Source: Pachyseris speciosa
Lineage: Eukaryota > Cnidaria > Anthozoa > Scleractinia > Pachyseridae
DNA: 64,000 nt
Reading direction: 5' to 3'
Assembly (NCBI GenBank): GCA_016490735.1
Contig: JAEMWC010001190.1
Location: forward strand, 16,001 to 80,000
Position 1 is the first letter of the stretch; every line of letters starts with the position of its first letter. Both the position numbers and the translations under genes were made by a program. This document shows positions 17,643 to 62,482 of this stretch, in pieces. The notes under the pieces were generated by a model. It saw only the letters and a list, made by a program, of their open reading frames with translations, had not been told where the DNA came from and made no database searches.

Positions 17643-17650
17643 GGGTTTAT

Positions 17651-20096: not shown

Positions 20097-20109
20097 ATAC
20101 TATTAGGTT

Positions 20110-22395: not shown

Positions 22396-22470
22396 ATGGC
22401 AATCAACAATTTTCAAAATCCAGAAAAACAGGAGAATCCCAGAACAGAAAGAATCGAAAGATTAATCTAA
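22396..22470 (+). CDS. 24-residue ORF resembling a fibre leader
   Basis: MAINNFQNPEKQENPR has the same flavour as the starts of the two fibre proteins (MGVFNAQINQDK, MGVFNSPQNQDN), which in such proteins attach the fibre to the capsid. It ends before any collagen repeat. It may be the leftover head of a third fibre gene or a free decoy or attachment peptide. Its TCTAA motif is intact. Confidence 0.45.
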   Translation: MAINNFQNPEKQENPRTERIERLI

Positions 22471-22482
22471 CAAGATGATATA
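22466..22482 (+). promoter_or_regulatory. TCTAA motif of fibre gene 1
   Basis: TCTAA, 12-base spacer, then ATG 22483. It overlaps the stop of the 24-residue ORF. Confidence 0.55.
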
Positions 22483-25400
22483 ATGGGAGTTTTTAATGCT
22501 CAAATAAATCAAGATAAAACAGAAACTGGTACTGGTGAAAGAGGCCCAGCTGGTCCAATTGGTCCCAAAGGTGAAAAAGGTGATAGAGGTCCAAAAGGTA
22601 ATACAGGTGCAATTGGTCCACAAGGAGCTACTGGAGCTGTTGGTCCCAAAGGTGATGGATTTAGATTAACACAAGATGGTAATTATGACATTGAAAATAA
22701 ACGTTTGACATATGTTGGTGATCCAGTAAATCATTATGATTCTGCTAACTTGGGATATGTTAATGATGCTGTTTTATCAATTGAAGGAACACGTGTTAAT
22801 CCATTCAAATTTCTTCTTGAAGATACATCAAAAACAACTATTCTTAGAAATGCGAATAATCTGCAATTTGAAGACTATGATAAAAGCCCTTACTCAATAA
22901 ATAAAAAATCTTGTCTTTTGTATCCCCACTGCTGGTCTTACAACTGTTCTTCGTTTTGATCTGACACAATTGGAAGTTTCAAAGTACACTTTAGTTGTTG
23001 AGTTTTATACTGATGGTAACCCAAATAATGCAACAGTCGATGACGACAATCTGTCATCAAATTTAATTGAAAGAAAGGATTCAATAAAAAGAGCATTTCC
23101 AAAGACTCATCTTGTTGATGGTTATCTTAAGAGAATATTCTTCCTTGAAAAAACAAATCATGGTTCCACATCAATGGAGTTATTGTTGATTTCGCCATAT
23201 TTACAAAATAATAAAAAACATTATGTTATAGTTTATGGTGTTTATGGATTTTCTAATATCATTTTATCACATATTCACGACCCAGTGTATGAAATTGAAA
23301 ACGGCAATGTTGTATTCGGTGGTGATATTAACATGAAATTAAACAAAATCATCAACCTGCAGGATAACCCCTCAAACCCACAAGATGCTGTAAACAAAAA
23401 ATATGTTGATGATGAACTGGCTGATTTCCTTAATATAAACACAGGCGGTGTGATTTATGCACCTGTTAGCATGAATAGAAATGATCTGTTTGGCATACCA
23501 GATAACCCAAGATTTGGTTATTCAGCTGTAAATAGAAACTATGTGAACAATAATTTTTTGAAACTAAATGGAAGTGTTGCGATGACTTCTGATTTGAATC
23601 TTGGAGGTAATAAATTGACTAATGTAGCAGCGCCAACAGCAAACAATGATACAGCCACAAAGGGGTATGTTGATACTGAAATTGCTGGAATTACTGGCAT
23701 TGATGTTTCACCATTTCTTAAAAAAGATGGAAGTGTTGCAATGACTGGTGATCTTGACATGGGTGACAATAAAATAACAAATGTTGAGACTCCAAACTCT
23801 GATAAAGATTCTGCCAACAAAAAGTATGTTGATGACCTTGTTTTTTCAGCATCAGGAGCTCAACGCAACCCATTCGCTTTTCTGTTAAAAGACATATCCA
23901 AGTCTTCTGCAGTTAGTGGTGCAACAAACCTTCAAATTGAGAATTTTGACAGATCACCTTATCACATAAACAAGTCATCATTGTCTTTTTTATTAAACGA
24001 AAAGGCAACTTTACATCCAAAATTCGTTTTAATGTGACATCTTTAAGAAATGGACGGTACACATTTGTTACTGAGTTTTACTCACCATCAGACCCACGCC
24101 AAGCTACAATTGGGCTCGATCTTCGCACATTGAATATACGAGATGCGGGACAGCCATTTCAAAAACCTTTTCTCAAAACCCCGTATGTTGATGGTTATAT
24201 GAAGAAGCTTTTCCGAATCGAAAAAACTGGTGGCGGTCAAGCGTTAATTGATGTTTTACTTTTTAGCACAGCTCCTGCGTCTAACACCAAAACACATATC
24301 ATCGTTTATGGGGCCTATGGCTATCATACCAATTTGTCTTACTTTCTCCATGACCCGGCTTATGAAATTGAAAACGGCCATGTTGCATTTGGCAGTAATA
24401 TTGACATGAAACTAAACAAAATCCTCAACCTGCAGGATAACCCCTCAAACCCACAAGATGCTGTAAACAAAAGTTATGTGGACCAGAGGTTGCAAACCAA
24501 ACTCGATACGATTGCACAACAAAATCTGAATATGAACAACAATGCCATTACTGATCTTGCTCCACCCGTCAATTTAGATGATGCGGTTACAAAAAGATAT
24601 ACTGACGAGTATTTTCTTCGACGAGACGGTTCGACTGCAATGTATGGCGATTTGTCGATGGGTGGAAATAGAGTGACTAATTTAGCGGACGTGGTGAATG
24701 AAACTGATGCAGTGAACTTTAGAGTTTTAAATCAAGCTGGAATAGCTATTAGATCGAACACTTTATTATTGAATGGAATAAATGCGATGGCAGCAGATAT
24801 GAAACTTGGAGGGCATAAAATCATTAACTTAAAAGAAGGAACAAATAAAACCGATGCCGTAAATTTAGATCAATTAGAAAAAAGTCATATTTCATCTGCT
24901 TCTCATCCAAAGAATGCTTTCAAATATTTGATGAATGATATCGATGAAGTCAGTACTGAATATGGCTTGAAAGTTAATGGATATGTCAATTTACCTCGTT
25001 CACCACATTTGATTTCAAAAAAGGTCATTGATATAGACTTGAATAAAGAAGCTAATCATATTTACAGAGCTAGAATTGGATTTAATATGTACACAATAAA
25101 AGATGGAAAATACACTTTCATTCTTGAATGGCTATTTCCTGATTATGAAGGAATGAGTCTTAGTAGTGTAACATTCAGTGCAACTGGTGGAATTACAATT
25201 CATAAAACTGTAGGGAGAAAATTTGATAACAGAAATGAAGATCATTCGAGATATTTATTATGGATTGAAAAACCATCAGCAAGTTCACCACCTGAATATT
25301 TATATTGTACGATTCATATTAATGCTAACCCAACTTATCCAAATAAGTACAAAGTTCATTGTGTTGCATATGGTATTGATTTTGAAGCTGTAGACGTTCC

Positions 25401-26127
25401 ATCAAGTGTTTACGACTTCTCTGAACCTTTCAAAATCGTTAATGAAAAAATACAATTACAAACTGATTTAGATTTGAATGGACATGCCTTGATTAATAAT
25501 TCATCAAACTTATTTGATGGTCAAAATGGTGAATTGACAATGCTAAATAACATTAATATGAACAGCTTTCTTATAAGTGAGGCTAAACTTGGCGGTGATT
25601 TAAATCTGAATGGCTATAGAATTCATAATAATAGTTTGAATCTATTTCGTTCAAGCGTTACAGGTGTAATTATGGAAACAGCTTTCGATCTCGGAGGATT
25701 TGCTCTCTATCAGCCAAAATTAGGAGGTGATCTAAATTTGAATGGAAATAATATAATCGGTCAAATACAATATTTAAATTGCTCTGTCAAAGCCAAACAA
25801 GGACATAATAAGAATGCTTTAAAGCCTGTATTGATAAATGGCTCTGATTTTTTAGTCATTCATAACAATAACTTTTATATTAAGAAAATGTATATCATAC
25901 AAGGAACAAAACCCGGAATATTTTATTTCAAGACAAAAGCAGAAGGTGGTATGCCTTTGCCATTACCAGCAACTATTTATGAACACAGACATAATACTAT
26001 GAGTAGAAACATCACAACGGTTAACGTCAATAAATCATTATCGAGAGGCTATTTTATAATTGACTATTCACATCCTAATAGTGGAGCATTTGATACAGCA
26101 TTCACACTTGAAGTGGTCATGAATTAA
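22483..26127 (+). CDS. Long collagen-type fibre protein, two frame breaks
   Basis: Likely trimeric receptor-binding fibre. The head (MGVFNAQINQD) leads into about 14 G-x-y collagen triplets, then into repeated beta modules of the kind LGGNKLTNV...TKGYVD. These modules are familiar from phage tail fibres. Three larger homologous domains follow, each opening like NPFKFLL or NAFKYLM and containing YTF-x-EF. Frame breaks occur at 22903-22908 (A6) and 23986-23991 (T6), at equivalent points of domains 1 and 2. Domain 3 is unbroken to 26127. Total length would be near 1200 residues. Internal duplication is plain from IINLQDNPSNPQDAVNK at 23351 and its copy at 24420. Confidence 0.8.
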
Positions 26128-26144
26128 TCTAAATTAATATTATA
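26128..26144 (+). promoter_or_regulatory. TCTAA motif of fibre gene 2
   Basis: TCTAA, 12-base spacer ATTAATATTATA, then ATG 26145. It directly follows the stop of fibre gene 1. Confidence 0.55.
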
Positions 26145-27154
26145 ATGGGAGTTTTCAATTCTCCACAAAATCAAGATAATAAAGGTGATAAAGGCGATAC
26201 TGGTGAAAGAGGTCTCAAAGGTGATAATGGAAATGGTTTTACATTAACACAAGATGGTCACTATGATCTTGGAAACAAACATTTGACTAATGTAAAAGCA
26301 GGCAATGATTCTGATCATGTTGTAATCAAATCACAAGTTTCAGATATTGTCAGAGATAGTTTTTTGGATTTGTGGGTTTCTGAATTCATCAGATTGTGCT
26401 CTGAATGTACTTATCAAATCGACAGAGCGAATAATAATTTTCTAGATATGAATGCAGACAGAAAAGTTGAAACATTGTACGATCTCTCGAATGAAGAAAA
26501 TAATGCAACGCAACCGACTTTGAACATAAGACCCACTGTTTGTACCAAGGCTGAGAAACATAATGGACGTTATTTTTTGAAGTTTGATGGATCACAGAGA
26601 ATGATAAGTCAAATCAATTTAAATAATAATGCTGTTAATATCTTCATTGTTTATAAATTAAATTCAAATACAGGTGGAAGTCCATGGAAAAATGGTCTTT
26701 TTGGTCATGATAATAGAGGTTATGATAAGTTTGTCAGCTATTACAATGGTTCAAATTTAGTTATAAGTGGTGTTGATCAATCAAATTGTGTGTATTTCGG
26801 TCCAGCAGCATCTATACAAAGTTTCAGAAAAATAGCAGATTATTCAGTAAATGATTTGGGTCAAATAAATGTTTGGCACTGCTTGTCTGTTCACTGGGAT
26901 AATTTATCTTCTCCAAAAACAAACACAAGTAAAATCTATTGGAATAAAAAACATATTGGAAGTTTTACAGCGGCTAACAGAAGTGGTAGTCGGCAAATGA
27001 CTTTTGGTGATTTGGATCCTAGCTCCATCGCACCTCTTGACGGTAGTGTTATTTTTTCTGTGTGTACTTGGATTCTATATTAGACGAAAAAACAATTTCA
27101 GATCATCATCAAATTTTAATCCAACGATATAATATAAATGAACAAAATAATTAG
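26145..27154 (+). CDS. Short fibre protein with collagen stalk and LamG/ConA-like head, one frame break
   Basis: Opens MGVFNSPQNQDN, has five or six collagen triplets, one GF-x-LTQDG-x-YD neck shared with fibre 1, then a 200-residue domain (ATQPTLNIRPT, RYFLKFDGSQRM, NIFIVYKLN, VWHCLSVHWD). That domain fits a laminin-G/concanavalin-like carbohydrate-binding fold. The frame stops at 27083, but the final strand and helix continue one frame away after the T6 run 27052-27057, to a stop at 27154. It probably gives the particle a second host-binding specificity. Confidence 0.75.
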
Positions 27155-27557
27155 ATATGTGAGATGGTTTACTCGGGATGCTGAACGGAAAAACCCTGGT
27201 GTTGACAAGAGGATTTTGAAATCAGCTTTGGTTTATCAGTTTCTATATCACAAACATTTTAACAAGTATGTTGAGGTTAGAGATATCCTTTTGGAGCATG
27301 AAGACATTGGATTAATTGGATATGGTGATGGTTGCCTGACACATTTGCTGGAGCATACTCTTGGATGGATTAATGTGTTGCAAACACATGCAATATTACA
27401 TGATGCTTTCGGTCGATTCTACGTCAAACATTCACTTGACAGAGGATATTCTTATGCTTTCCCCCGTTTCATGACAACGAAATTTAACAAATTGTCACCT
27501 CTAAGTGGACAATTGTCTGGTTTGTGGTACTGTGTGTTGAACAGAATCGTTATATAA
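27138..27557 (+). CDS. Unrecognised Polinton protein, 139 residues
   Basis: Starts MNKIIRYVRWFTRDAERKNP and contains GDGCLTHLLEHTLGWINVL and HAILHDAFGRFYVKHSLDRG, a His/Asp-containing region that could be catalytic, but I cannot assign a family. It has no clear transmembrane helix or signal peptide. Its start lies 13 bases after TCCAA, a one-base variant of the motif, and overlaps the extended end of fibre gene 2. The frame is unbroken. Confidence 0.6.
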   Translation: MNKIIRYVRWFTRDAERKNPGVDKRILKSALVYQFLYHKHFNKYVEVRDILLEHEDIGLIGYGDGCLTHLLEHTLGWINVLQTHAILHDAFGRFYVKHSLDRGYSYAFPRFMTTKFNKLSPLSGQLSGLWYCVLNRIVI

Positions 27558-27566
27558 GCATATTGT

Positions 27567-28052
27567 ATGAAAGAGCGAAAAAGCATATTCAGCTGGAACC
27601 ATATTTCAGGTGAATTAACAGAAGATCAGGTAAATGAATTAAAATCCTATTACCGAACATATCACAGAAAGTGTTGGGCTTATAAACAAGCTGTTAAACG
27701 GTTCAAAAAATGGAAATTACTGGGGAATTCAGCATCCATTATATTTGCAACTGGCGGTCTTGCCGCAAGTATTTCGACTGGTGGTGTTAGTTTAGTTGCC
27801 ATCAGTACAGTATCACTTTTAATACAAGGTTGGATGAAACACAAGAACCTTGACATGAAAATACAGAATTGTACATATGCTTATCAAAGCTACCAGCATC
27901 TTCTCAATACAATAAAAGAAACCATGAGAAGCGGTAATTTTGATAATTCCAGCATACACAATACAATGAAGAACATAGACGATTATGTTGTTGATAATAG
28001 TCCAATTATTGATAAGTACCTACTGAAATATGATGAAAAATTCACTGTTTGA
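27567..28052 (+). CDS. Predicted membrane protein of the Polinton
   Basis: 161 residues. A basic N-terminal half (YYRTYHRKCWAYKQAVKRFK) is followed by a hydrophobic Gly/Ala/Ser-rich segment at about 53-88 (SASIIFATGGLAASIS, VSLVAISTVSLLI) able to form a hairpin of two membrane helices, then a soluble C-terminus. Proteins of this plan are common in Polintons and related viruses; their job is unknown. It lies 9 bases after the preceding gene and ends at the inward-facing end of the VLTF3-like gene, overlapping its tail by 11 bases. Confidence 0.6.
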   Translation: MKERKSIFSWNHISGELTEDQVNELKSYYRTYHRKCWAYKQAVKRFKKWKLLGNSASIIFATGGLAASISTGGVSLVAISTVSLLIQGWMKHKNLDMKIQNCTYAYQSYQHLLNTIKETMRSGNFDNSSIHNTMKNIDDYVVDNSPIIDKYLLKYDEKFTV

Positions 28053-28725
28053 TAATACGAATAATCTTATCAAATATTAACAATAGAATCTCAACCCAAT
28101 ATTGATTATAAAATTTCAGTGTTTTCTTTGAGTTGGTTAATATGATATACTCATAAGGCAGATCCATCATCATAAACAATTGTTTCAGAATGAATTTGGT
28201 GTTTATCATTCTTTTACGATTCTTATTCACCGAAGGGATGATAGTGTCTATCTCCTTGAATATTCTTAATATTTTACCCTTATCTTTTACTGAAATTTGA
28301 AATCTATTCTTGCAACATATACCATTTATCACATTTTCAATATGGTACTTCCGATGATATATAGATTTCCGCTTTATTTTATACATATTATTATGAAAGT
28401 CAACGTACTCCTTACAATAATCATAACCATGGACTGAACCACAATTTGTACAAACATTTTCACCATTGTCATTAATCATTTTCTGATTATCACAACATGG
28501 TTCATTTTTGACACTATGTTCTGCTATCTTCTGATCACATAAAGGACATATTAGATATTTTTCTACTTCAACAAAATATTCGTGAATATCTGGATTACAA
28601 AAATCATTTACCATCTGGCTACCTGATCCAATATTTTTCTGACTTAGGCCATTTACCATCTGGCTACCTGACCTGATTTGAGAGGGCTTTTCCAAGGCCC
28701 GGAGATTTCTTTCTTCATTCTCCAT
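28042..28725 (-). CDS. VLTF3-like zinc protein, candidate late transcription factor
   Basis: 227 residues. The first 41 are encoded in the right TIR and are identical to the start of the polymerase. The body has CPLCDQKI and CTNCGSVHGYDYC zinc-knuckle pairs, then RKSIYHRKYHIENV and a helical C-terminus (KFILKQLFMMM). Zinc ribbon plus a basic Y-x-R-x-x-H region is the layout of poxvirus late transcription factor VLTF3 and its relatives in large DNA viruses. The match is by motif layout only. If right, it would activate the TCTAA-type promoters. Without its neighbours one could call it merely a zinc-ribbon protein. Confidence 0.6.
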   Translation of the reverse strand: MENEERNLRALEKPSQIRSGSQMVNGLSQKNIGSGSQMVNDFCNPDIHEYFVEVEKYLICPLCDQKIAEHSVKNEPCCDNQKMINDNGENVCTNCGSVHGYDYCKEYVDFHNNMYKIKRKSIYHRKYHIENVINGICCKNRFQISVKDKGKILRIFKEIDTIIPSVNKNRKRMINTKFILKQLFMMMDLPYEYIILTNSKKTLKFYNQYWVEILLLIFDKIIRIIKQ

Positions 28726-28908
28726 AATAACCTATAGCGACATTTCTTTAAGTGTTTTTTATATCATAAAGTACTTAAATAGATGACCTTAACCTTGGCA
28801 AAAAGTGTGCTAGATCACGTGACCTTGACCTTAGGAAAAAGTGTGCTGTTTTGAAAAATTGCACAATTTTATGGAGAATGTGCTAGATCACCCATGTACT
28901 ATACTACT
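28603..28908 (-). repeat. Polinton right terminal inverted repeat
   Basis: Exact reverse complement of 10232-10537. It carries the promoter region, start codon and first 41 codons of the VLTF3-like gene. Confidence 0.97.
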
Positions 28909-32340: not shown

Positions 32341-33639
32341 TCCTTTGCTATTACCGCAAACGACTTTATGTTGTCCAGACATTGCTCTCCTAGGTGGTTA
32401 TCAAAAAAATAAAATAAAATAAAATGAAATTTTTTTTTGGAGCGATAATTATACGATTGATAGCCATAACTGGGTACTGCAAAAATAGTGTAACCCTCAT
32501 GTTAGTAGCGCCAAACAAAAAGAAGGAGGAAAGTCTGTCCTTGTTACATCGAGCGCATTATTCTTATAATAATGCCCGAGGTCTGTGTTTTTTTTTTTTT
32601 CGCAATAACAATCCATAGAATCCTTATCAACATATAACCCTGTAAAATTACAAAATCGCAAAGTCAGCGGGTATTCCAACTTGGGTCTCCTGCTCGAAAG
32701 ACGGCAGCTATATCCGCTCGACCATAAACACACAGCATAAAAAATTACTTAGGGATATTAAGGCATAGTTAGAAGCATTTGCATAAAATAATAATTATAA
32801 CATTGTGTAGATATAAAAAGCATGGCTGCTCCTCCTTGTTTGGGGTGGCCCCCGAAAACGACCAGGGGCTCATGGACCCGCGGGGTCCCCAGTCAGTAAT
32901 ATTACAACATCTCCCCTCTAGCAGGATTCAATGACTCTTTCTCGCTTCCTGACTCCTCCTCCAGATCTCGTAGTAATTAGTGGATTTTGTGCTTGTACCT
33001 TGATTCTCAACGGTGCGTCTTTTTTTCTGAGTGACCGTTCCTCAGTTTCAGGTAAATTAAAACTTCTGGGGGAGCCGCCAAGCTGGGAAGCCACAGCATG
33101 ACGCAGTTGGGGATGCATGAATTGATCATTTGGAACTGAGATGATCTGTCTCTTATTTCTTCTGTAGATAAGCCCCTGTTCATCTTCCAGGGGATACGAC
33201 CTTGGTAACACGCTCCCGATTTGGAATAATTCGCACTTTGTCCCCCACCTCAAGTGGAGGCAAGTCTCTACTCTGTTTGTCATAGTTTCTCTTAAAAATG
33301 TCCTGACGAAGTTGAAGTGCTTTCACAACTTGGTCAGGGTCCACTTCTTGGGGTAACAAGAGACTTCGACGAGTAGGTATTATTGTGCGTGTTCGCTGAC
33401 TCATCAGTAACTAAACAGGTGACACACCTATATCTTGGAAAGGTGTATTGCGATACTTCAGCAATCCCTCAAATGGGTCCTTAGGGTCTGCTGCAGCCTT
33501 CTTCAGGGTACGTGCACTGCCCTCTCTTCTGCATCATTCAATTGTGGGTACTCCGGTGAGCTTGTAGTATGGCGAGATCCCCATGGCTACTGTTAAATAA
33601 ATTTCTGGTATTGCTCTAGTGATGATCTTCAGATCATGG

Positions 33640-34520
33640 CCAAGTTCATCTTGATGGTGCAGCAGTTCCACGATGGCATGAAAGCGAGAGTGCAGGATGA
33701 CGGCGAGTACTCTCAGCCGTTCCTGTAACCAGTGGAGTAAAGCAGGATTGCATGCCGGCTCCCACCCTGTTCAGTGTGATGTTCTCCGCGATGCTAACTG
33801 ACGCTTTCCGAGACGGTGACATTGGAGTTGGCTTTCGGTATCGTACCCACGGCAAACTCTTTAACACTCGGAGACTGCTAGCCAAGACCAAAGTGCATGA
33901 AGACACAGCCCGAGATATCCTCTTCGCTGACGACTGCGCGCTGGATGCTTCCACTCAGTCTGACATGTAGGGAAGCATGGACATCTCCTCCCAATTGCCT
34001 GCAACGACTTTGGGCTCACGATTTCCACCAAGAAGACAGAGGTCATGCACCAGCCAGCGCCTGAAGCTCCCTACACCGAGCCCACATCACCGTCAACGGT
34101 CAGCGACTAGCCGTATCAGACAAGTTTGTCTACCTCGGCAGTACTTTGTCACGCTCCTTCAACATCGATGAGGGAGAGGCCTACAGAATCGCTAGAGCCA
34201 GCGCAGCCTTCGTTAGATTGAAGGATAAGGTCTGGAAGCGCAGAGGACTAAGCCTTGACACCAAGCCCAAAGTATACAGAGCAGTTGTGTTACCATCCCT
34301 GCTCTACGCCTGCGTGACCTGGACAGTTTACACTCGGCATTTCCGATAGCTCAATGCCTTCCATATGAGATGTCTCAGAACCTTGCTCTGCTTTAAGTGA
34401 CTGGACAAAGTGCCAGACACGGAAGTGCTCTTGCGGGCTGAGATTGAGAGCATCCACGCCATCCTGACGCGCTCTCAGCTCCGGTGGGCTGGCCATGTTA
34501 ACCACATGGAAGACAGTTCG
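33640..34520 (+). pseudogene. Non-LTR retrotransposon reverse transcriptase fragment
   Basis: Plus-strand scraps in two or three frames show QGCMPAPTLFSVMFSAMLTD, RDILFADDCALDA (the FADD catalytic box), VLPSLLYACVTWTVY and SQLRWAGHVNHMED, the ordered motifs of LINE reverse transcriptases from the fingers to the C-terminal thumb. It has several stops and frame changes, no endonuclease and no 3' tail. It sits inside the gypsy remnant in the opposite orientation, so it arrived later or came with a rearrangement. Confidence 0.85.
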
Positions 34521-37659: not shown

Positions 37660-37790
37660 CATAAATTACTCAAATGAAGAATGATCCTCGCAGTTATGAA
37701 CGCAATTTACGCAATTGCGAAAAGAAGCCTGAAAAAATTTCAGGACTTGAACGGGGTTTGAACCCGTGACCTCGCGATTACCGGTGCGAT

Positions 37791-37831
<41 letters not shown>

Positions 37832-38860
37832 AGGTCAATTGTGGGTTCATATGATTCCGTGAAAGAAATGAGTATGAATCATATGTGAATTTCGGAAATG
37901 AAATCAAATCCAACGTCAGGGGCTTCATAGCTCAGTTGGTTAGAGCATCGCACCGGTAATCGCGAGGTCACGGGTTCAAACCCAGGCTTCTTTTCGCAAT
38001 TGCGTAAATTGCGTTCATAACTGCGAGGATCATTTTTCATTTGATTTCATTTCCGCAGTTCATATATGATTCGTTTCATATATCATTCATACTCATTTCT
38101 TTCACGGAATCATATGAACCCACAATTAACCTGCTCCCAACGTCAGTGGCTTCATAGTTCAGTTGGTTAGAGCATCGCACCGGTAATCGCGAGGTCACGG
38201 GTTCAAACCCCGTTCAAGTCCTGAATTTTTTTTTCTTTCAGGTTTCTTTTCGCAATTGCGTAAATTGCGTTCATAACTGCGAGGATCATTTTTCATTTGA
38301 TTTCATTTCCGCAGTATATTAATGATTCATTTCATATATCATTCATGCTCATTTCTTTCACGGGATCATATGAACCCACAATTGACCTGCTCCCAACGTC
38401 AGTGGCTTCATAGTTCAGTTGGTTAGGGCATCGCACCGGTAATCGCGAGGTCGCGGGTTCAAACCCCGTTCAAGTCCTGAATTTTTTTTTTCTTTCAGGT
38501 TTCTTTTCGCAATTGCATAAATTGCGTTCATAACTGCGAGGATCATTCTTCATTTGATTTCATTTCCGCAGTTCATATATGATTCATTTCATATATTATT
38601 CACACTCATTTCTTTCACGGGAACATATGAACCCACAATTGACCTGCTCCCAACGTCAGTGGCTTCATAGTTCAGTTGGTTAGGGCATCGCACCGGTAAT
38701 CGCGAGGTCGCGGGTTCAAACCCCGTTCAAGTCCTGAATTTTTTTTTTCTTTCAGGTTTCTTTTCGCAATTGCATAAATTGCGTTCATAACTGCGAGGAT
38801 CATTCTTCATTTGATTTCATTTCCGCAGTTCATATATGATTCATTTCATATATCATTCAT
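37660..38860. repeat. Array of tRNA-Thr-like repeats
   Basis: One unit is inverted (tRNA-like part 37741-37816, minus strand) and four are direct, with tRNA-like parts starting at 37921, 38148, 38404 and 38661. The last three are spaced 256-257 bases. Each has GGCTTCATAG-TTCAGTTGGTTAGAG, the loop CACCGGTAA, GGTCACGGGTTCAAACCC, a CAGG/T-rich piece, GCAATTGCGTAAATTGCG and TTCATAACTGCGAGGATCA. The anticodon arm contains an extra C that spoils the stem, so these are not functional tRNAs. The flanks tie them to the unit at 3557. Confidence 0.8.
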
Positions 38861-39435: not shown

Positions 39436-39970
39436 GATGCCTGGAAGACCTATGACAGAAGAGCAGAGGGAAAAAAAGAGAGAAAGAAAACGAGAACGAC
39501 AAAGGTGAAAAAAAACTACGAGAAATGAGAAGCAACAGAACGGAGGAAGAGCGAGAAGCTGAAGTACAAAGACTGCGGGAAATGAGAAGGAGCAGAACTG
39601 AAGAAGAACGGGAACCTGAAGTACAAAGACTGCGAGAGTTGAGAAGGAGCAGAACTGAACAAGAACGGAAAACTGAAATACAAAGACTGCGAGAATGAGA
39701 AGGAACAGAACTGAAGAAGAAAGGGAAACTGAAGTACAAAGACTGCGAGAATTGAGAAGGAGCAGAACTCAACAAGAAGGGGAATACTGAAATACAACGA
39801 CTGCGAGAATTGAGAAGGAGCGGAACCGAAGAAGAACGGGAAACTGAAATACAAAGACTGCGAGAAATGAGAAGGAGCAGAACCGAAGAAGAACGGGTGA
39901 CTGAAGTAGAAAGACTGCGAGAATTGAGAAGGAGTAGAACTGAAGAAGAACGGGAAACTGAAATACAAAT
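39436..39970 (+). repeat. Coding-type 57-bp tandem repeat, charged 19-residue unit
   Basis: After a start-like MMPGRPMTEEQREKKRERKR segment that ends in TGA, about eight 57-base units run from 39537 to 39970. Each encodes RTEEERETEIQRLRELRRS or a close variant. One unit is a base short and another a base long, so the frame is lost and regained. Such Arg/Glu repeats form long single helices. The array stops where the minus-strand polymerase fragment begins. Long minus-strand frames across it are only its shadow. Confidence 0.6.
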
Positions 39971-39984
39971 CAGCTGGTCCGGCG

Positions 39985-41017
39985 TCTTGGCCACTTGCAC
40001 GAAACAAGGGTGCTCGTGGATCATGACGTCTTGGACACCTGGAATTCCCGCACCCCCCGCAACAGTTTGCCGCAGTCCCTGTAAAACAGACGCCGACAAT
40101 GAGGGCACAAAGCACTGGCCGTCCCCTTCTCCGACCTAGCCCGAGCATGATCGGGGCAACCTTCTTGCAAACAAGCCCCGCAATGATCGGCGTTTAGGGT
40201 GCAGCGATGTTGGCCCGCATTGTTGTAGCCCTTGTAGCAATGAGCGCAAAAGTAACTGGTACCAAGCAAAAGTCTCAAAGTTCCGGTCGGCGTCCACCAC
40301 CACGATGGTGTAGTCGACCATGGACAGATGAGCCGCAAACTGTTTCAATTCCGTGTCCCCGCAGACGCCCAAAGGCACACCCGTGGTCACGTGCAACTGA
40401 GTGGCCGCCCACAATTGCGGAGCGCGCCCTCGTTGGAACGCGAGCCATTGTGGATGGTTCTCTAGCTTGGCGCGCGCCGTCATCACAGCCCGCGCGCAGC
40501 ACAGCTGTGCCCGCGTACAAGGAATCTTGATCACGGCCCTCTTAATGACGCGCAACACCTCCGACGACCGATGACCCGGTTTCATGCGGCGTTTGGTACC
40601 CCCGCCGCGCGGCGTGCCACACACGTGCACGAACGTCAATTGAAACTGTTCGTTGGGATTCAACATCTTGGCCAGGTGCTGCAACATGGTGTCCACCCGC
40701 AAAGAATCCCTACGCCATTCCCCGGCCGTCAACCCCCAACCGTTGTAACTGTTCACCAAACGATTAGAGCCTATGGTGAAGAACACGCGGTCCCGATCCT
40801 CAATCTCTTCCTCCTGGTCGCGCAGCAAACGTTCCAGGGCCCCGCGAAGCCCTTGTGTCAACGCGGCCGCCAAGTTCTGGCGCGGTCTCAAAGCCCCCAC
40901 TTGGCGCACGCGCGTCCGAAACATGGGCTCCTGGACGCCCATGCACACACTGCGCCGCTGCACCACGGGCTCAAACTCGAACTCGAATCTTCCTGGCAGG
41001 TCCTGGTCTTGACTCAT
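39985..41017 (-). pseudogene. N-terminal region of a second, different DNA polymerase B (truncated)
   Basis: From ATG 41017 the frame runs GHRSSEVLRVIKRAVIKI, RAQLCCARAVMTARAKLENH and TTGVPLGVCGDTELKQF. These are signature phrases of the N-terminal region of DNA_pol_B_2 polymerases carried by a distinct group of Polinton-like elements and adintovirus-like viruses, by my recollection of the family. After VVVDADRNFETF the frame shifts near 40265 and residues appear to be lost. A zinc-rich module follows (GTSYFCAHCYKGYNN, CGACLQEGCPDH, CPHCRRLFYRDC), then sequence ends at the 57-bp repeat array. The exonuclease and polymerase cores are missing, so it cannot be active. It is unrelated at sequence level to the intact polymerase at 10415. 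Confidence 0.7.
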
Positions 41018-41263
41018 GCTGGTACGGTACCGTCACGCCAGGCACCTCACTTTATACACCGTCACTGCTGACGCCACCCTGGCGTGGCCCCATCCCCGCA
41101 TACCAATCAATGCAAACCACCCGGTCTGACGTCATGGAAGAACCGGGGGGATGAGGGGTCCCTCCCCCTCTTGAGGTCACGTGGGGAATCTCCGCGGCGC
41201 TGATTGGTGGACACCAAATCGATAAAGGCGACGCACCGGCCACGGAGATCACTCTGTTTCAAG
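41018..41263. promoter_or_regulatory. Compact divergent promoter of the G+C-rich element
   Basis: For the minus gene, TATAAAG lies 30-40 bases before ATG 41017. For the plus gene, GATAAAG lies about 40 bases before ATG 41264. Between them are the palindromic CRE TGACGTCA (about 41128), an E-box-type CACGTG (about 41176) and CCAAT boxes in both orientations (ACCAATCAATG, GATTGGTGG). Such density in 246 bases resembles viral or housekeeping bidirectional promoters. Confidence 0.6.
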
Positions 41264-41554
41264 ATGGCGTCCGAAACACCTCGTGAGAAAATGCCAAGAT
41301 TAGACGTAGTGAAAGAAGGATGGCGCAAGACTGTGACCATCCATGATGGAATACGTTGGACACCAGACGACAGAAGTCCAGACCAGGACGATTCAGTGTC
41401 CTATTGGGATTTTCTACCGCCGGAAATGCAAGAAATGATCCTCCGCCAAAAAGAACAATTGGAAATTCAGGACATCATTAATCACCTCGCCATGCGCTGG
41501 GACAAAATACACCAGCAAATGGACCAGCTACCACGCTGTCGCGTGCACGGAACC
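41264..41554 (+). CDS. Exon 1 of the plus-strand array gene
   Basis: ATGGCGTCC in good context opens 97 codons ending exactly at a GTAAGT donor. The protein begins MASETPREKMPR, has WDFLPPEMQEMILRQKEQL (faintly like the first helix of an F-box) and QMDQLPRCRVHG. Intron 1 (41555-41627, 73 bases) has a near-perfect branch site TACTAAG and a polypyrimidine-CAG acceptor, so splicing here is convincing. I do not recognise the protein family. Confidence 0.65.
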
Positions 41555-41627
41555 GTAAGTTCACGTTTTTTCATTTTCATGGTAGTTAGCTCATACTAAG
41601 TCGCCCCTTTCCTGCCCTTTTCCTCAG

Positions 41628-41762
41628 CCCCTACCCGCCAAAGTTTTCTGTCTGACCTACACTCAACAAATTCTCAACGAGAGCGATTACATTCCTTGGT
41701 TCCAAGACCGTCATTGCCACATGCCCATTGAGCGACACTGGTTCGGAGGACTTTTGTTTTGA
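41628..41762 (+). CDS. Array exon 2
   Basis: 45 codons in phase with exon 1, containing FCLTYTQQILNESDYIPWF and a Cys/His-rich end. The last codon is TGA, and the donor GTAAGT follows it at once. If translated from exon 1 the protein would end here. If the exon is skipped or spliced differently, the stop is avoided. The next gap, 41763-41785, is only 23 bases. Confidence 0.55.
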   Translation, partial: PLPAKVFCLTYTQQILNESDYIPWFQDRHCHMPIERHWFGGLLF

Positions 41763-41785
41763 GTAAGTGTCCCCTTTTTTCGCAG

Positions 41786-41945
41786 CCCATGTTCCTCCAA
41801 GAAAAATGCATGCTGCTGCGCGTCCCCACCAGCATCCTGAGACCGCGACCGGGACGTGCTGCCGCTAGATTTCATTTGCACGGCAAGCATTGGCATGCGT
41901 TTGAAAGTACACACCATTTGTTTCACAAGCTCAGACGGTTCCGCT
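41786..41945 (+). CDS. Array exon 3
   Basis: Between CGCAG and GTAAGT. An open frame has PMFLQEKCMLLRVPT and a His-rich segment (HLHGKHWHAFESTHHLFHK), possibly metal binding. It is 160 bases long, so it changes phase. Following spacer 41946-41968 is 23 bases. Confidence 0.5.
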
Positions 41946-41968
41946 GTAAGTAATTGTTCTCTTTGTAG

Positions 41969-42151
41969 ATCGTACCCCATGGCACCTGCGATTTCCGTTG
42001 GTTAGACTACACCCATCCCGCTATGACCATCCTTCGCGCCCAAACGCTGGTAGCGGCTTGTGTCACCCACCGGGGCAAAATCATCCGGGCTCATCAAGTC
42101 CGCGAGCATGCTCACCCCCTCCGCTGCCCCTGGGATTATTAGCCGTGACGC
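41969..42151 (+). CDS. Array exon 4
   Basis: The best open frame starts at the acceptor: IVPHGTCDFRWLDYTHPAM, then ILRAQTLVAACVTHRGK, ending CPWDY and a stop shortly before the donor. That frame is not the one dictated by joining exon 3 at its donor, so either a different exon is joined here or exons are used singly after a common leader. Following spacer is 25 bases. Confidence 0.45.
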
Positions 42152-42176
42152 GTAAGTGTTTCTTCCTTTCTGTCAG

Positions 42177-42726
42177 ATCACCTCTTGGTTATGTTCCCTG
42201 CCACGGGGGTGGACCTGTTATCAACCTGAACCCAGTCATCATTGGTACTGGGACTATGAAGGGCTCCAACCCAATCTGCACATCGTCTTCGTACCCCTCC
42301 GCCAAGTAAGTCTTTTTCCTCTTGTCTTCCAGTTGCCCCAGGGGTGGATTTGTATCAAAATACCCAAGATCCATCTGCACTGGATAAAAAGCCAACTTGC
42401 GCGTCGTCTTCGTTATCCCCAAAGTAAGTGCTTCCTTTTTTCTCAGGCCAGAGGATGGTGTTGTTACTTGGGTGCCTCATCCATTCAGTGGTACTAGGAC
42501 TTTGTCGCCCCCGGTAAACCCCTTCGCATCGTCTTCGTCCATACATTGACGGGATCAGACCCACCAACCCATCGCTGAGTAAGTCTTTTCTGTTTCTTTC
42601 TCAGGGCATGCCCCAGGGCTGGAGTTGCTTTAGATCCCACGAAGACGAAGGTCGTGTGGTCCACCTACACGGTGATCTGCGCCTCGGTCATCCCCTGTCA
42701 TTCACTTTCATCGATCTTCCTGGCAT
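42177..42726 (+). CDS. Four tandem P-x-G-W-x-C modules of the array
   Basis: Modules at 42177-42305 (LPRGWTCYQPE), 42333-42423 (LPQGWICIKIP), 42447-42578 (ARGWCCYLGAS) and 42605-42726 (MPQGWSCFRSHEDEG). They are paralogous: a GWxC start, then an aromatic/His region and a hydrophobic end such as IVFVPL or FTFIDL. Each is bounded by a pyrimidine-CAG and a GTAAGT. The spacers are 27, 23 and 26 bases. The third module has an internal stop, and the last ends at a weaker GTAGCC donor. Function is unknown; the conserved Trp and Cys suggest a small folded domain. Confidence 0.5.
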
Positions 42727-42760
42727 GTAGCCACTCATTCATCTCTTGCCCTTTTTTCAG

Positions 42761-42958
42761 TTTCTGATCGACGCCTACGGGAAGTGGGCCAACAGTAAGA
42801 GTGAGAGTTGCATTTTCGATTGTCCGATGTACCCTCGTTGCAAGCGCCTCGTCTACTCAAAGCAGATCCCGGTCGCCCTCAGAGCCTTCCTGCCACGCAG
42901 ATCCACCTTGGCCAATTTCCAACGCGTATTGGACTACTTTGAATCTCTCGACAGCTGA
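42761..42958 (+). CDS. Array exon with Cys-rich segment
   Basis: After CTTTTTTCAG, 66 codons to TGA: FLIDAYGKWANSKSESCIFD, then CPMYPRCKRLV and a basic tail LPRRSTLANFQRVLDYFESL. The stop is not followed by a donor, and the next acceptor is 170 bases on. This may be a terminal exon of one transcript form. Confidence 0.5.
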   Translation, partial: FLIDAYGKWANSKSESCIFDCPMYPRCKRLVYSKQIPVALRAFLPRRSTLANFQRVLDYFESLDS

Positions 42959-43130
42959 CGGTCCACCCCCGGGCAGTTGCCAATCGCCTCCAACAGCGTC
43001 TGGTGTTGGTCCTAATACCGTTGCCATGTTGTTTGGTTTTCGTTCTCGTTTTCACCTTTGTATTGCTTCCATTTTATTTGTGTTATCAAAACCTATCAAA
43101 TTCCCATTCCATCGTGTGGTTTTTTTGCAG

Positions 43131-43253
43131 ACCATGCCCAAGGGTTGGGGTTGCATCAGATCCAACCATAATCCAGATCCTCTCCTTCGCTATCACAGTG
43201 ACCTCCGCTTTGGCGTTTTCTCTTTCCATAGGTCTTCATTCACCCCCTGATAC
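43131..43253 (+). CDS. Fifth P-x-G-W-x-C module
   Basis: Acceptor TTTTTTTGCAG is followed by ACCATGCCCAAGG, a start codon in near-ideal context. It encodes TMPKGWGCIRSNHN and YHSDLRFGVFSF, clearly paralogous to the module at 42605 (HLHGDLRLG). Confidence 0.5.
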
Positions 43254-43531
43254 GCCTAGCTAGCCTCAATCCCTGCCACCAACTAATTGTCACGCAGCCA
43301 CCCTTCCTTGCTTGCCATCGACGACTAAGATTAAAATACAAAGGCGTCACGATATGCGCACATGTTACGCACGGTTACTGGTTGCCTCTTCGTCGCTAGG
43401 TTTACATCGACCCTCTAATACGCCTGGCCAACCTAGATCCCTCCTATGAACTGACGGTCCACCGCATACGCTTCGTCGCTCGCGACCGCTGGTTGACATT
43501 CAAACACAAACACAACATCTTCCTTGAATTT
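43232..43531 (+). CDS. Two PLIRLA modules of the array
   Basis: After CCATAG at 43231 and CGCTAG at 43399 come paralogous exons VFIHPLIRLASLNPCHQL and VYIDPLIRLANLDPSYEL, each followed by a basic stretch. The sequence between them is partly duplicated too. Function is unknown. Confidence 0.45.
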
Positions 43532-43589
43532 TGGTTCCAGTTATCTCATGCACGTGGATTATTAAACGCTGTGCTTGCTTTCTTCGCAG

Positions 43590-44348
43590 AGATTCTTCGA
43601 TCCCATGGCCGAACGCACACTCCCCAAAGAAAGAATCCTCGTTTGCCCCCACATCTCTGCTTGCGGTCGTTAGCTCTACGTACTCCGCGGCCACGTCGTG
43701 CGCCACATCCTGTAACTCCATTGATTGTCTGTTCTCTCTCTCACAGCTGTTCATTGTGCCCATGGTCCATTGGTCCACCGTACGCCCCGGCCGAGTCAAC
43801 CCACCCAAAGTCATGATCCTCATCTGTCCTCATTTCAGTGAATGCGGTCAACACTTACGTGCCCTCAATAGACTTGCTTTGAGTCATTTGTGCCAATGAA
43901 AGTGCCTGTTCTCTCTCGTCGCTGTACATTGTCTTTGTTGTCTGCCGCTGTCTACGCCATGGCCAAGTCGACCCACCCCAAGTCAGGGAACTCGTCTGCC
44001 CTTACTTCGGTCACTGCAGCCAATTCAAGCGCGACCTCAGTACCCAGGCTTTGCGCCATGTACGTCACTGCGACAACCAACAACCTAACCGACCTCTAAC
44101 GTATCGTCCTTTGCACCGGTGTTCTTGCCCATTCTATCAACCACTTGAGTGACTGTGTCTATTCTCTCGTAGCTGTACATTGTGCCCATGATCTGTCTAC
44201 ACCATGGCCGAATCGTCGTCCCACCCAGAGTCAGGATGCTCCTCTGCCCTTACTTTGGTTAATGCGGTCAATACCAACGTGCCCTCAGTTCCCAGGCTTT
44301 GCGCCACGTACGCCATTGCGACACCAACTATCATGGCCCAGCCGTAAC
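43590..44348 (+). CDS. Four tandem CP-x4-CG finger modules
   Basis: Modules begin at 43590, 43747, 43922 and 44173. Their cores are ILVCPHISACG, ILICPHFSECGQHLRAL, ELVCPYFGHCSQFKRDL and MLLCPYFG followed by an in-frame stop and CGQYQRAL. Most end with ALRHVRHC or similar, giving a C-x5-C-x(12-15)-H/C pattern that could hold zinc. Each is preceded by a related TGTCTATTCTCTC-type pyrimidine run. The third has lost the AG of its acceptor, and the first and fourth carry stops, so the set is partly decayed. Confidence 0.5.
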
Positions 44349-44369
44349 TTTACGTCGCTGTTTTTGCAG

Positions 44370-44516
44370 ATCCTAACCAGCACCCTCCTCTGTTCGGACA
44401 TTGATCCCCAGTACTGGGCATGCGCGGGCCACACCTGCTTCCATCTTCCCACCCGCTTCTTTTACCAAGAGATTGACTTCTTCACCAATTCCCGTGCTTT
44501 CCTTGCCAGTGCATGA
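44370..44516 (+). CDS. Array exon ending in an ATGA overlap
   Basis: After TTTTTGCAG: ILTSTLLCSDIDPQYWACAG, HTCFHLPTRFFYQEIDFF, then TGA. The A of the preceding GCA and the TGA form ATGA, whose ATG begins the next frame. The Cys/His content resembles the other modules. Confidence 0.5.
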   Translation: MLTSTLLCSDIDPQYWACAGHTCFHLPTRFFYQEIDFFTNSRAFLASA

Positions 44517-44716
44517 CAGACGTCCTGAACGTGTTCCCCACCCATCCCGACGCTGAGGTCAAGTTTTGGCAGCACCTCCAACGCTATTGGATCCAACAAC
44601 GTTTCGTGCGCTGTGAACATTGCCAACACTACACTTTGTTAACCGCCTGTCAACAATGCCACTTTCAAAACCACCCTTATCGTTATCCCTTTAGTTGCAA
44701 ATATTGTAAACATTAG
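44513..44716 (+). CDS. 67-residue zinc-cluster ORF
   Basis: ATG overlaps the previous stop (ATGA). MTDVLNVFPTHPDAEVKFW leads to a dense metal-binding region, CEHCQHYTLLTACQQCHF, and ends CKYCKH. Three CxxC pairs in 35 residues suggest two small zinc knuckles. No family was recognised. The frame is unbroken, unlike several modules before it. Confidence 0.5.
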   Translation: MTDVLNVFPTHPDAEVKFWQHLQRYWIQQRFVRCEHCQHYTLLTACQQCHFQNHPYRYPFSCKYCKH

Positions 44717-44758
44717 CCTTTTGATAGTTTCATTAAAAACCCTTTATTTGTATTGCAG

Positions 44759-44925
44759 TGTTTTGTTGATTCTTGGTGTTTTGTGGATTTCTCCACCGCT
44801 CCAGATCGCCTGTTGTCCCGCGAGATGTCCCCAATCGTTGCCGTCGCCGCCAATCCTGTCATCGCTACCGACACCTGCTCCCATCATACAGCTACTATTA
44901 CCACTCGTACTACTAAACCGTAGTT
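44759..44925 (+). CDS. Ser/Thr-rich array exon
   Basis: After TATTGCAG an open frame of about 55 codons becomes Ala/Thr-rich (TATITTRTTKP) and stops. The evidence is acceptor plus openness only. Confidence 0.3.
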
Positions 44926-44959
44926 GCAAACAACACTAACTGCCTGTTCTCGCTCACAG

Positions 44960-45331
44960 GTGATGTTTGCATGTGCGGCAGACAAGTACAGTTCACGACG
45001 CTTGGTCCGCTTGGTACGACGCTTGCTCTTCTGCCCTTTCTCCAATGACTGCGGAGAACATGTACGAAGCTACGCGCCATGCCCCATGCGTCATTCACGG
45101 AATTTTGCATCTCTTTTCGACGTTAAAAATAGAACCATCATAAGATACAATTAAACAGTGTGTAAATAAGAAATCATGTCTGTTCATTGACTCTCGTCCC
45201 CCGCAGTTGCAAACAACACTAACTGCCTGTTCTCGCTCGCAGGTGCTGTTTGCAGCTACGACAGACAGCAAAGTCCGACGCTTGTTCCTCTGCCCTTTCT
45301 TCAATGACTGCGGAGAACAAACATGAAGCTA
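44960..45331 (+). CDS. Last two CP-x4-CG modules in a 265-bp tandem duplication
   Basis: Modules at 44960 (VMFACAADK, LLFCPFSNDCGEHVR) and 45243 (VLFAATTDS, LFLCPFFNDCGEQT) share acceptor TGCCTGTTCTCGCTC(A/G)CAG and the upstream word TTGCAAACAACACTAA. The duplication includes the exon, its 3' flank and a polyadenylation signal. The second copy gains an early TGA. Confidence 0.5.
45150..45155 (+). terminator. ATTAAA polyadenylation signal, first copy
   Basis: ATTAAA followed by the GU-rich CAGTGTGTAAATAAG, the usual layout of a metazoan cleavage site. Confidence 0.5.
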
Positions 45332-45411
45332 TGCGTCATGCGCCATTCGGCGTCATTCGCCAAATTTTGAATCTCTTTTCAAGGCTGTAAACAGAACTAT
45401 CATAAAATACC

Positions 45412-45417
45412 ATTAAA
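45412..45417 (+). terminator. ATTAAA polyadenylation signal, second copy
   Basis: Duplicate of the signal at 45150, followed by CGGTGTGTAAATAAC. It marks the probable end of the G+C-rich unit. Confidence 0.5.
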
Positions 45418-45459
45418 CGGTGTGTAAATAACAGTCACATGTCTGTTCATTGACTCTCA

Positions 45460-47829
45460 TCCCAAGGTCACGTGACCCTCGGGGGAAACACTTTCAATGC
45501 AGTTTGACGAGTTTGATTGATAGCTCGTTCTGGCTTCTGATTGGTCAATTCAATTTTGATAGACAGGTCGTTCTGGCTTCTTATTGGTCGAAAATTTTGA
45601 CATATTTGGGTCTATACTAGTCCATAGTACTATTCTCGTGGATACCCGAGGCATAGGAACGAGTTATTGTGGGCACTGCGTGTCACTCACTCACTAAGGT
45701 GTAGACACACTTCGTAATTAGTCGGCCCCGAACGAGAGTGCTCGGTACATCGATCGTTACCGAAGATAACCAATTACCTCTCCCGCTCAGTGTGCATCGT
45801 GCCTGGAGGATTGCTGATTTTGTAGCTTTCACAGGACGATTAGGTGTCTTCAGGTGGACTGAATATGTTTCAAATTAGTACTATGGCCAACTTGGAGACT
45901 GGATTTCGTTTCCTTTAAAACGAATCCTATTTGTCGAACATATTGAACTTACATGAGCGAATCGAGGACTTCGTGAACGAAACAACTATGGAGAACATTG
46001 GCAGAATTGACGAGTTCATGATGCGAAACCAGAGGCCTTTTGTGGTCAAACGATGGCAACATTGCTTCAATCGTAGACTGGTGGTTTCACATTGGAAGTG
46101 TTATATCTCATGAATATTCATATTGTACGCGCATGCTCAGTTCAAGGGCTTTTGCCATGTGCTTTTCGGGTTTCGTCATGTTCGATTAAACCGTTGCGTT
46201 TAATAGTATCTGTTCTATGCGTTTTACCTTGCTACAAGAAACCCCACTACACTACAGGAAGTGAAGTTCTGACCTATACAGAGACCTTTTTTCTATACAG
46301 CAAGGCTGTACTCTATCGGTTTGCGGTGCCCTGAGCGGTTAATATTTGGATTAGTGCGACTGCAAATAATTATTTGTCGCCCGGGCAGAGCATTCTTGCT
46401 TGAATGAAGTGCACTGTGCATTAAAACAGGCCAAAAATATTCTAACAAACTGGTGTTGGTTTATTGTGTTGGCGAAGCGTGGCACACAACATTTGTTCTA
46501 CAAACAGTCGCATACTCGATGACATGAATGAACAGCTATGAATTTCATAGCTGTTCGGAAAATTCCTTGCAGATCTTTTCACACAATCTTCACTGAGCCG
46601 GGAGCGCCGCTCGGTAAGCCGCACAAATCTGCTCCATTTCTCAAAGTATCTCAAGATTTTTCTTTCTTGTGGTTTATTGCTGGTTTATTTTAGTGCCTCA
46701 GAAGTTGTTGACGGGCTGGGATCTTTACGCGTTGATTTTGTCGTTTCATTTAACTATAAATGAGTGTTTATACAAATTTATTTGACGTTGGCGTTTGTGT
46801 TTACTCTTCCGATTGCTTTGTTTTGCTAATTTTGACAAAACAAGATAAACTATGTAATGCGAAGCAACTACAGGAAAGAATTAGAAGCATCGTTTTTCTT
46901 CTCGTAATAGTATAGTTTTTCCTTGTTTTTTATTTCGTGACGAACCAGTTGATTACATTTGCTAATATTCACGAAGACCAAACCTAGCGAAACATTATTT
47001 AAGACTTTGCTATACTGCATCCATGTCCGACCGTTCTGCAAGATGATTCTTTAAAATAGTCATTTTTACAGCTTGTATCTTTTATCTGTGGTATATTTCA
47101 ATCACACACTCAGTCGCTGATATCTGGAAGAAGCCATGACATTTATGAAAGTAGAAAATATGTCAAGTATAGTAATATACGTAATTGTGCACTAAAAAGC
47201 TCTCTCATTTACTTTTATAACCAATTAATCACGCAATCAATTAATAATTTTTTGACACCCCTGCCAGAATAGTTGAAGTTTTTCTTAGAGAAAATTGAAT
47301 GCACAGTAGTCCTGTGTTTTTATTGGGCAGGACTCATATCTCGAAAAACAATCTGGAAATCCCATAGCAACAGCACTTTGTCAATTTATTTATAATTCCA
47401 CACGCCTGTTCCTCTGTGGTCTCATCTGCACACAACTTCTTGAAACCCATTGGGTCTTGGGCTTCCTCATAGCCCAACTCTCTTTGCAATCGTTTGCATA
47501 ACAAAAAACACCACTAGAAACCAGGAATGCTACAATGAGCTAGTGAACAGTAATACCCTCCAAGGAGGCTCTATATTCACAGAAAATACTATCAGATATA
47601 TGTTCCCTGCAAAGGATGAAAAGTCAATAAACCTAGGTAGTTAAATTTCTAACATTCCCTTGCATGTGCCTTCTTGTAATAATTGTGCTACAAAGGCCGG
47701 TAGACAAAGGCTTGGGTTTGTGTACCTTATCCACGAGTTGGCCATAGGTATTTTTCTCCAGTACGTTAAGTTGGCAGAAACAATAATTGATGAAGTGTCA
47801 TTGTTCAACAATTTAGATTTAGATGGCTG

Positions 47830-61477: not shown

Positions 61478-61627
61478 AAGTTCGTTGTACACAACGTGAT
61501 CATGAGGAAGCGTGCCTTAGAACAGAGCAGATACTTTGTTGATCAGCAACTAGGAGATCCACAGTGAACGGTTGCAGATCTACGGGAGTGACTGGCAACG
61601 GGTGATACTTCATTCACCAACAAGCTA

Positions 61628-62431: not shown

Positions 62432-62433
62432 GG

Positions 62434-62446
62434 GCGTAGCCCTCAG

Positions 62447-62482
<36 letters not shown>

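Follow-up and report, generated by a model that had tools for sequence, protein, structure and literature searches.

Leader-to-cassette splicing is probable in a micro-spaced exon array at the right end of a decayed Polinton-like provirus of Pachyseris speciosa

The 64,000-nucleotide (nt) stretch of the Pachyseris speciosa genome analyzed here, hereafter the window (contig JAEMWC010001190.1, positions 16,001 to 80,000, i.e., C1190:16001-80000; assembly GCA_016490735.1, searched over 983.7 Mb), carries a compact segment in which the remnant of a family B DNA polymerase gene (PolB) faces a plus-strand leader exon followed by about 19 short cassettes. Of a larger provirus, the segment represents just the right 5.6 kb, and the left part of the window's element is gone. 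We consider it quite probable, taking all parts together, that this is the right end of a decayed provirus in which the leader would be spliced to mutually exclusive cassettes. The element is of a known kind. Its new part is the micro-spaced exon array of the terminal region, and no description of such an array layout was found in the literature searched.

The leader exon matches the host assembly in 81 rows, which merge into 70 places. Thirty loci (the window included), the best of the 81 rows, were fetched, leaving out 40 of the 70 places. All 30 have the polymerase N-terminus on the strand opposite to the leader, at a distance of 224-534 nt (in the window the two starts are 246 nt apart). 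In the 29 loci other than the window, nucleotide identity to the window over the longest match is 78-96%. The domain PF03175 (DNA_pol_B_2) stands divergently within 6 kb of the leader at at least 11 of the 70 places, as counted from part of the 127 PF03175 rows. Four copies end, by eye, at the same right-end sequence. The terminal-repeat pattern is present genome-wide at 94 forward and 90 reverse places (184), compared with 0/0 for the control, and it faces the leader from 2.9-4.6 kb downstream at at least 21 of the 70 places (among the 100 of 184 repeat places listed). At least six copies among the places listed have two ends, measuring 20.2, 21.9, 22.3, 24.1, 31.0, and 37.4 kb, so that four fall within 20-24 kb. 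Target duplications are best read as 6 bp in all four two-ended copies examined, two of which need a shifted or altered terminal base, and a 7.6 kb short relative found on two contigs likewise has a 6-bp-type duplication. Polintons produce target duplications of 6 bp. In one copy (C134, locus L062) an integrase open reading frame (ORF) lies ~5 kb from the other end (Pfam rve, expectation value E 3.6e-12), while it is absent from the window fragment; this ORF of 291 amino acids (aa), the one integrase ORF scanned, showed no chromodomain. In another copy (C189), ORFs beyond the polymerase are 38-46% similar to ORFs of a sister element (L011), and the second of them also matches the protease-like ORF of a separate Polinton in the window (E 0.001).

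Given the copies, the shared ends, the target duplications, the rve integrase and the putative capsid- and protease-like ORFs, the segment is almost certainly the right end of a Polinton/adintovirus-like provirus. The original prediction had suggested an integrated virus or Polinton-like element and had named recurrent co-occurrence of polymerase and array with shared ends as its test; this recurrence was found. Two points weaken the assignment. The C189 ORFs are putatively hexon-like (capsid) and adenain-like (protease), and Pfam names neither; moreover, the target-duplication search was run without a control and tolerated a shift of the end by up to 3 nt. Among the listed places, nine terminal-repeat pairs (C1, C4, C35, C55, C65, C188, C215, C229, C287) are separated by just 5.2-8.7 kb, and these are likely to be non-autonomous relatives using the same ends. 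C287 and C35 show the same short insertion with mirrored flanks, pointing to duplicated or allelic contigs in the assembly, and copy counts may therefore be inflated. Similar ORFs, on the minus strand as oriented, were noticed by eye in a sister element and two family copies (L009, L049, L062).

As judged from sequence comparison, the minus-strand fragment is the polymerase part that precedes the DNA_pol_B_2 catalytic domain. Its longer frame matches seven metagenome proteins with 47-65% identity, and a second, Cys-rich frame matches the next part of one of these proteins (P0002; 53% over 45 aa). The fragment is assigned to the region before the catalytic domain because both frames match upstream of PF03175, each in 6 of the 8 PF03175 loci of the same genome; in one locus (L006) both matches and PF03175 share one phase of a 1345-aa open frame. 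The original prediction of an N-terminal DNA_pol_B_2 fragment on the minus strand was confirmed, the fragment lying ahead of that domain. The polymerase of the window is frameshifted, internally deleted and ends at ~39985 at an unrelated 57-nt repeat array, with the catalytic part lost, and the window copy is probably dead. That the Pfam scan gave no match to DNA_pol_B_2 carries no weight here, since the same scan misses this domain even in the window's intact Polinton polymerase. No relative was found for the polymerase pieces among viral contigs, for the polymerase among prokaryote genome contigs or for P0002 among phages, and a sequence search of PDB with the N-terminus gave no convincing match. 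By eye, its Cys and His motifs may fit an OTU-like domain.

The features of the segment and its borders are listed below in window coordinates. The cassettes comprise E2-E20 in addition to the leader E1; some were placed by an acceptor scan ("scan"), and E4, E10, E15-E17, E19, and E20 by conservation or by eye. "Copies" and "paralogy" denote support from other genomic copies and from related cassettes, respectively.

39456-39984, plus strand: 57-nt tandem repeat array with an Arg/Glu-rich frame; outside the element, it severs the polymerase (repeat search)
40135-40269 (about), minus strand: Cys-rich region of the polymerase B N-terminus, second frame (P0002 match; upstream of PF03175 in 6/8 loci)
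40262-41017, minus strand: polymerase B N-terminal fragment, 252 codons, ATG at 41017 (seven homologues; match upstream of PF03175 in 6/8 loci)
41018-41263, both directions: divergent promoter region with TATA-like sites each way, TGACGTCA at 41127-41134 (read from sequence)
41264-41554, plus strand: E1, common leader exon, 97 codons, phase-0 end before GTAAGT at 41555 (three metagenome homologues; genome matches)
41555-41627, plus strand: sole intron of ordinary size, 73 nt, with branch-point-like CTCATACTAAG by eye (sequence reading; copies)
41628-41762, plus strand: E2, TGA stop immediately before donor 41763 (scan; copies)
41786-41945, plus strand: E3, donor 41946; stop in the window copy 8 nt into the spacer (scan; copies)
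41969-42151, plus strand: E4, TAG stop 9 nt ahead of donor 42152 (conservation in copies)
42177-42305, plus strand: E5, Gly-Trp family, donor 42306, which no stop precedes in the window copy (scan; paralogy; copies)
42333-42423, plus strand: E6, Gly-Trp family, donor 42424, without a preceding stop (scan; paralogy; copies)
42447-42578, plus strand: E7, Gly-Trp family, stop 81 nt ahead of donor 42579 (scan; paralogy)
42605-42730, plus strand: E8, Gly-Trp family (scan; paralogy; copies)
42761-42958, plus strand: E9 (scan; 67-94% in L044, L045, L046)
43134-43252, plus strand: E10, Gly-Trp family (paralogy; copies)
43232-43399, plus strand: E11, Tyr-Ile-Asp family (scan; paralogy; copies)
43400-43588, plus strand: E12, Tyr-Ile-Asp family (scan; paralogy; copies)
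43590-43720, plus strand: E13, Cys-Pro family, in-frame stop in the window copy (scan; paralogy)
43747-43899, plus strand: E14, Cys-Pro family (scan; paralogy; copies)
43922-44149, plus strand: E15, Cys-Pro family; acceptor without AG in the window copy, by eye (paralogy; copies)
44176-44360, plus strand: E16, Cys-Pro family, in-frame stop in the window copy (paralogy; copies)
44370-44516, plus strand: E17 (71-79% in L044-L046)
44510-44716, plus strand: E18, own ATG, three CxxC pairs; ATTAAA at 44732-44737 (scan; copies)
44953-45155, plus strand: E19, Cys-Pro family, polyadenylation signal 45150-45155 (repeat; paralogy; copies)
45236-45417, plus strand: E20, duplicate of E19, polyadenylation signal 45412-45417 (repeat; paralogy)
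45605-45634, minus strand: right terminal repeat of the element (end common to four copies by eye; genome-wide pattern)

Most claims made for this arrangement beforehand held up. About 18 short plus-strand cassettes with splice signals had been predicted, and about 19 were placed. The divergent promoter is supported by its TATA-like sites and by similar spacing of the region in most of the 30 loci, and the two duplicated polyadenylation sites correspond to a repeat of 82 nt whose copies at 45088 and 45350 share 83% identity and each contain ATTAAA. Three paralogous families were indeed found, namely Gly-Trp (E5-E8, E10), Tyr-Ile-Asp (E11, E12) and Cys-Pro-x-Phe (E13-E16, E19, E20), but E2, E3, E4, E9, E17, and E18 stand outside them. 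Finally, the right half had been thought to code for a set of small Cys/His/Trp-rich proteins; the cassettes would supply Trp/His- or Cys-rich tails, and they look more like phase-matched exons with micro-spacers than like small genes.

Splice signals favor the strand of the array. GTAAGT occurs seven times on the plus strand of 41555-45500, compared with 0.53 expected, and once on the minus strand. In the 30 loci, 164 donor-to-next-acceptor gaps were detected on the sense strand downstream of the leader and none on the other, and 162 of the 164 measure 18-29 nt. In the window scan, 9 of the 12 cassette acceptors have their longest frame in phase 0, which is the phase of the leader. An in-frame stop lies between -3 and +9 nt of the donor in 10/22 copies of E2, 12/22 of E3, 16/22 of E4, 8/9 of E5, and 1/3 of E6, a count from which 51 of 129 exon rows were dropped for want of an acceptor, GTAAG or a stop; the corresponding figures for the other two phases are 1/40, 3/43, 3/38, 0/17, and 0/5. 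Further cases occur at -4, with the stop formed by the donor itself. The leader donor can also be followed in metagenome proteins. All three leader relatives retain the two codons spelled by the donor, and two diverge straight after it. The third (P0008) continues a few residues past the donor; it is 98% identical to a genome copy (L032), may thus stem from the host species and does not count as an independent relative.

With respect to conservation, E2, E3, and E4 recur in 29, 26, and 27 of the 30 fetched loci. Because these loci extend only 1.5 kb past the leader, their length limits the counts from E6 onward; E9-E12 and E14-E19 were refound in the same order in L044 and L045, and largely so in L046. 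Between copies, the leader has a median ratio of nonsynonymous to synonymous substitution (dN/dS) of 0.22, and cassettes with more than one pair have 0.33-0.68; the six-frame comparison had only three ungapped copies of the leader and so gives it no frame control. Frame 0 has the lowest dN/dS of the six frames for E2, E3, and E4, and the window paralogues E11/E12 show a mild third-position excess. One copy contains three tandem E4 units, each exactly 201 nt long (exon plus 18-nt spacer) and 88-94% alike. Extra cassette-like exons were observed between E4 and E5 in L019, L021, and L024, absent in the window, C367, and C1950, while in L032 (3071-3256) E18 comes directly after E5, a shortened array.

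Considering the parts, their order, phases and spacing, we believe that the array probably follows a splicing logic. Several observations, however, tell against it. The spacer scan was limited to 16-35 nt and is blind to longer gaps, so that the strand contrast serves as its control. Eight of the 20 acceptor-like sites in the window scan were set aside as not being cassettes, and phase 0 is not the longest frame at 3 of the 12 cassette acceptors. In 12 copies E6 shows no stop close to its donor, and E2 is the only cassette of the window copy with a stop exactly at the donor. For E5, E6 and E8 another frame does better than frame 0, and the window paralogues E14-E16 display no third-position excess; since frame 0 is lowest only for E2-E4 and that excess is missing, the sequences demonstrate coding constraint for the first cassettes only. 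In PDB, E18 matched best to part of actin-related protein 3 (E 0.0046), a hit that was taken as chance.

According to the splicing model, a single early-type transcript would arise at the divergent promoter and run to the right terminal repeat, and E1 would be spliced in phase 0 to one acceptor among ~19. With a mere 18-29 nt between a donor and the following acceptor, neighboring cassettes could not be joined; this distance is below 43 nt, the shortest spliced human intron named in the portion consulted of PMC4463651. Adjacent cassettes would thus be mutually exclusive, with each cassette donor still usable for splicing on to a distal polyadenylated exon. As the frames of E2-E5 mostly close at their own donor, no stop would lie far upstream of the junction and nonsense-mediated decay would be avoided. 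A stop at the donor is too close to the junction to provoke nonsense-mediated decay. All products would begin with the same N-terminus, followed by varying short Trp/His- or Cys/His-rich tails that perhaps bind different host proteins, and the array would expand by duplicating whole acceptor-exon-donor units. The chances appear even that a eukaryotic DNA virus lineage evolved its right end into an exon library of this kind, in which one leader, ~19 tails, exclusion by spacers, stops of many tails fused to donors and growth by unit duplication make up a modular adaptor generator. That the products are zinc-binding adaptors targeting the host is a guess, and a rather doubtful one. If the splicing model is true, spacing below the intron minimum combined with a stop at the donor would offer a virus a simple rule for expandable alternative protein tails. 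For splicing biologists, the array provides a natural series of 18-29 nt donor-acceptor distances in dozens of copies, and for virologists a handle on the unnamed early-region proteins of Polinton-type viruses.

The micro-spacers might instead be true ultra-short introns, so that cassettes are joined serially into longer proteins. Their donors and acceptors are near consensus and conserved, and the window's 27-nt spacer downstream of E5 stays in frame even unspliced. However, a separate branch point would not fit into 18-29 nt, a length that also falls short of the 43 nt cited above, and the stops abutting the E2-E5 donors would mostly end translation in the first cassette of a serial product; we thus regard serial joining as unlikely. 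It is more improbable still that a compact virus carried each cassette as a small gene of its own, expressed unspliced, and that the splice-like signals are incidental. E18 begins with its own ATG, and E8 and E10 have an ATG within their first codons, but most cassettes have no ATG at the start and yet keep acceptor and phase, and the confinement of all 164 spacers to one strand is hard to reconcile with incidental signals.

Similarly small, if anything slightly smaller, is the probability that the array is decaying tandem-duplicate sequence with no function now or before. The window copy is broken at E7, E13, E15, and E16, and some exons lack coding constraint; in contrast, E2-E4 are retained in 26-29 of 30 copies and constraint is seen on E1-E4, indicating that a dead window copy is likely but a dead family is not. 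A host gene family captured by or adjoining the element would agree with the failure to find a named viral relative. We consider this origin very improbable, given that the array stands beside the polymerase in 30/30 fetched loci, that the terminal repeats enclose it wherever both ends are listed, and that sister elements have a leader of similar motif at the same place, albeit with weak similarity (E 0.13). The original prediction had named a single-copy host gene conserved without the polymerase as the finding that would contradict it, whereas 70 places were found, with the polymerase beside every one of those fetched.

The proposed leader-to-cassette splicing in a provirus can be set against several known systems. 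Polinton/Maverick elements and adintoviruses, in the parts consulted of three sources (PMC11071296, PMC8363768, PMC6431247), have in common with this family the family B polymerase, rve integrase, terminal repeats, target duplications and many integrated copies, as well as, putatively, capsid-like and protease-like ORFs. A micro-spaced exon array with a leader is not described in those parts; in PMC11071296 "splice" has 0 occurrences and "splic" appears once, about an iridovirus. The adintovirus definition, as far as it is given in the part consulted, includes an OTU-like domain at the PolB N-terminus and a chromodomain at the integrase C-terminus (PMC11071296). In the same genome, sister elements (L009-L011) carry another such PolB facing a leader with an LP-x-E-(M/I)-Q motif, and L010 has a phase-0 GTAAAT at its leader (by eye) and acceptors opening in phase 0. 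Unlike the ~19 short cassettes here, the sister exons are few and long: 201 and 159 codons by scan in L010 plus a third by eye, 201 and 41 in L009, and only 201 in L011. The L009 and L010 leaders, weakly similar as they are, rank first and second among 1016 ORFs. Since sister elements combine a leader of the same motif with few long phase-0 exons, the array may be an expanded, miniaturized form of an ordinary few-exon region.

The adenovirus E4 region and atadenovirus right-end genes (compare the portion consulted of PMC7551158) are likewise terminal and multi-product, yielding small proteins from one unit. In contrast, no sequence match to them was found, transcription here would run outward to the end, and no F-box was detected in the leader. 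Mutually exclusive exon clusters (compare the parts consulted of PMC7969005 and PMC6071210) also place one exon in each mRNA, sometimes enforced by restricted intron size; here the array belongs to a virus-like element and comprises ~19 cassettes, several of which stop at their donor, and exclusion is a prediction from spacing.

Database searches added few names. An F-box in the leader had been suggested by its LPPEMQ motif, but there was no Pfam match at E 1 and none in a PDB profile search. The leader had no relative among viral contigs, and nothing above the curated cut-off in Pfam, NCBIfam, PHROGs or a sequence search of PDB. A protein search with E18 found no relative, and NCBIfam and PHROGs gave nothing above the curated cut-off for it. 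The family scans covered part of the array, with E2, E3, E8, E14, E19, and E20 not scanned individually; Pfam reported nothing above the curated cut-off for ORFs around E4-E6, E9, E10, E12-E13, and E15-E18. No LxCxE motif was present in the three plus-strand frames.

Concerning extent and composition, the right boundary of the element is ~45634. The end predicted at 45440 was thus placed too early, in what moreover proved to be the right end of something larger. The whole segment (39985-45627) has a G+C content of 0.520, compared with 0.381 for the remainder of the window, and values per 500 nt are 0.46-0.60 across 40000-45500 and mostly 0.32-0.43 elsewhere. The segment had been called G+C-rich relative to everything around it; the content is indeed raised, but 33500-34500 also reaches 0.51-0.54, so that this composition is not unique in the window.

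Other features of the window were also noted. A separate A+T-rich Polinton, apparently intact and unrelated to the exon-array element, occupies 10409-28731, with the start of its first ORF duplicated at both ends. It has an rve+Chromo integrase and a protease-like ORF that stays below the Pfam cut-off, and its long ORFs contain collagen-like and repeated segments. The interval 61592-63992 holds Helitron-like N-terminal and PIF1 helicase ORFs, and four tRNA matches are clustered at 37743-38734, three of them in a row ~256 nt apart.

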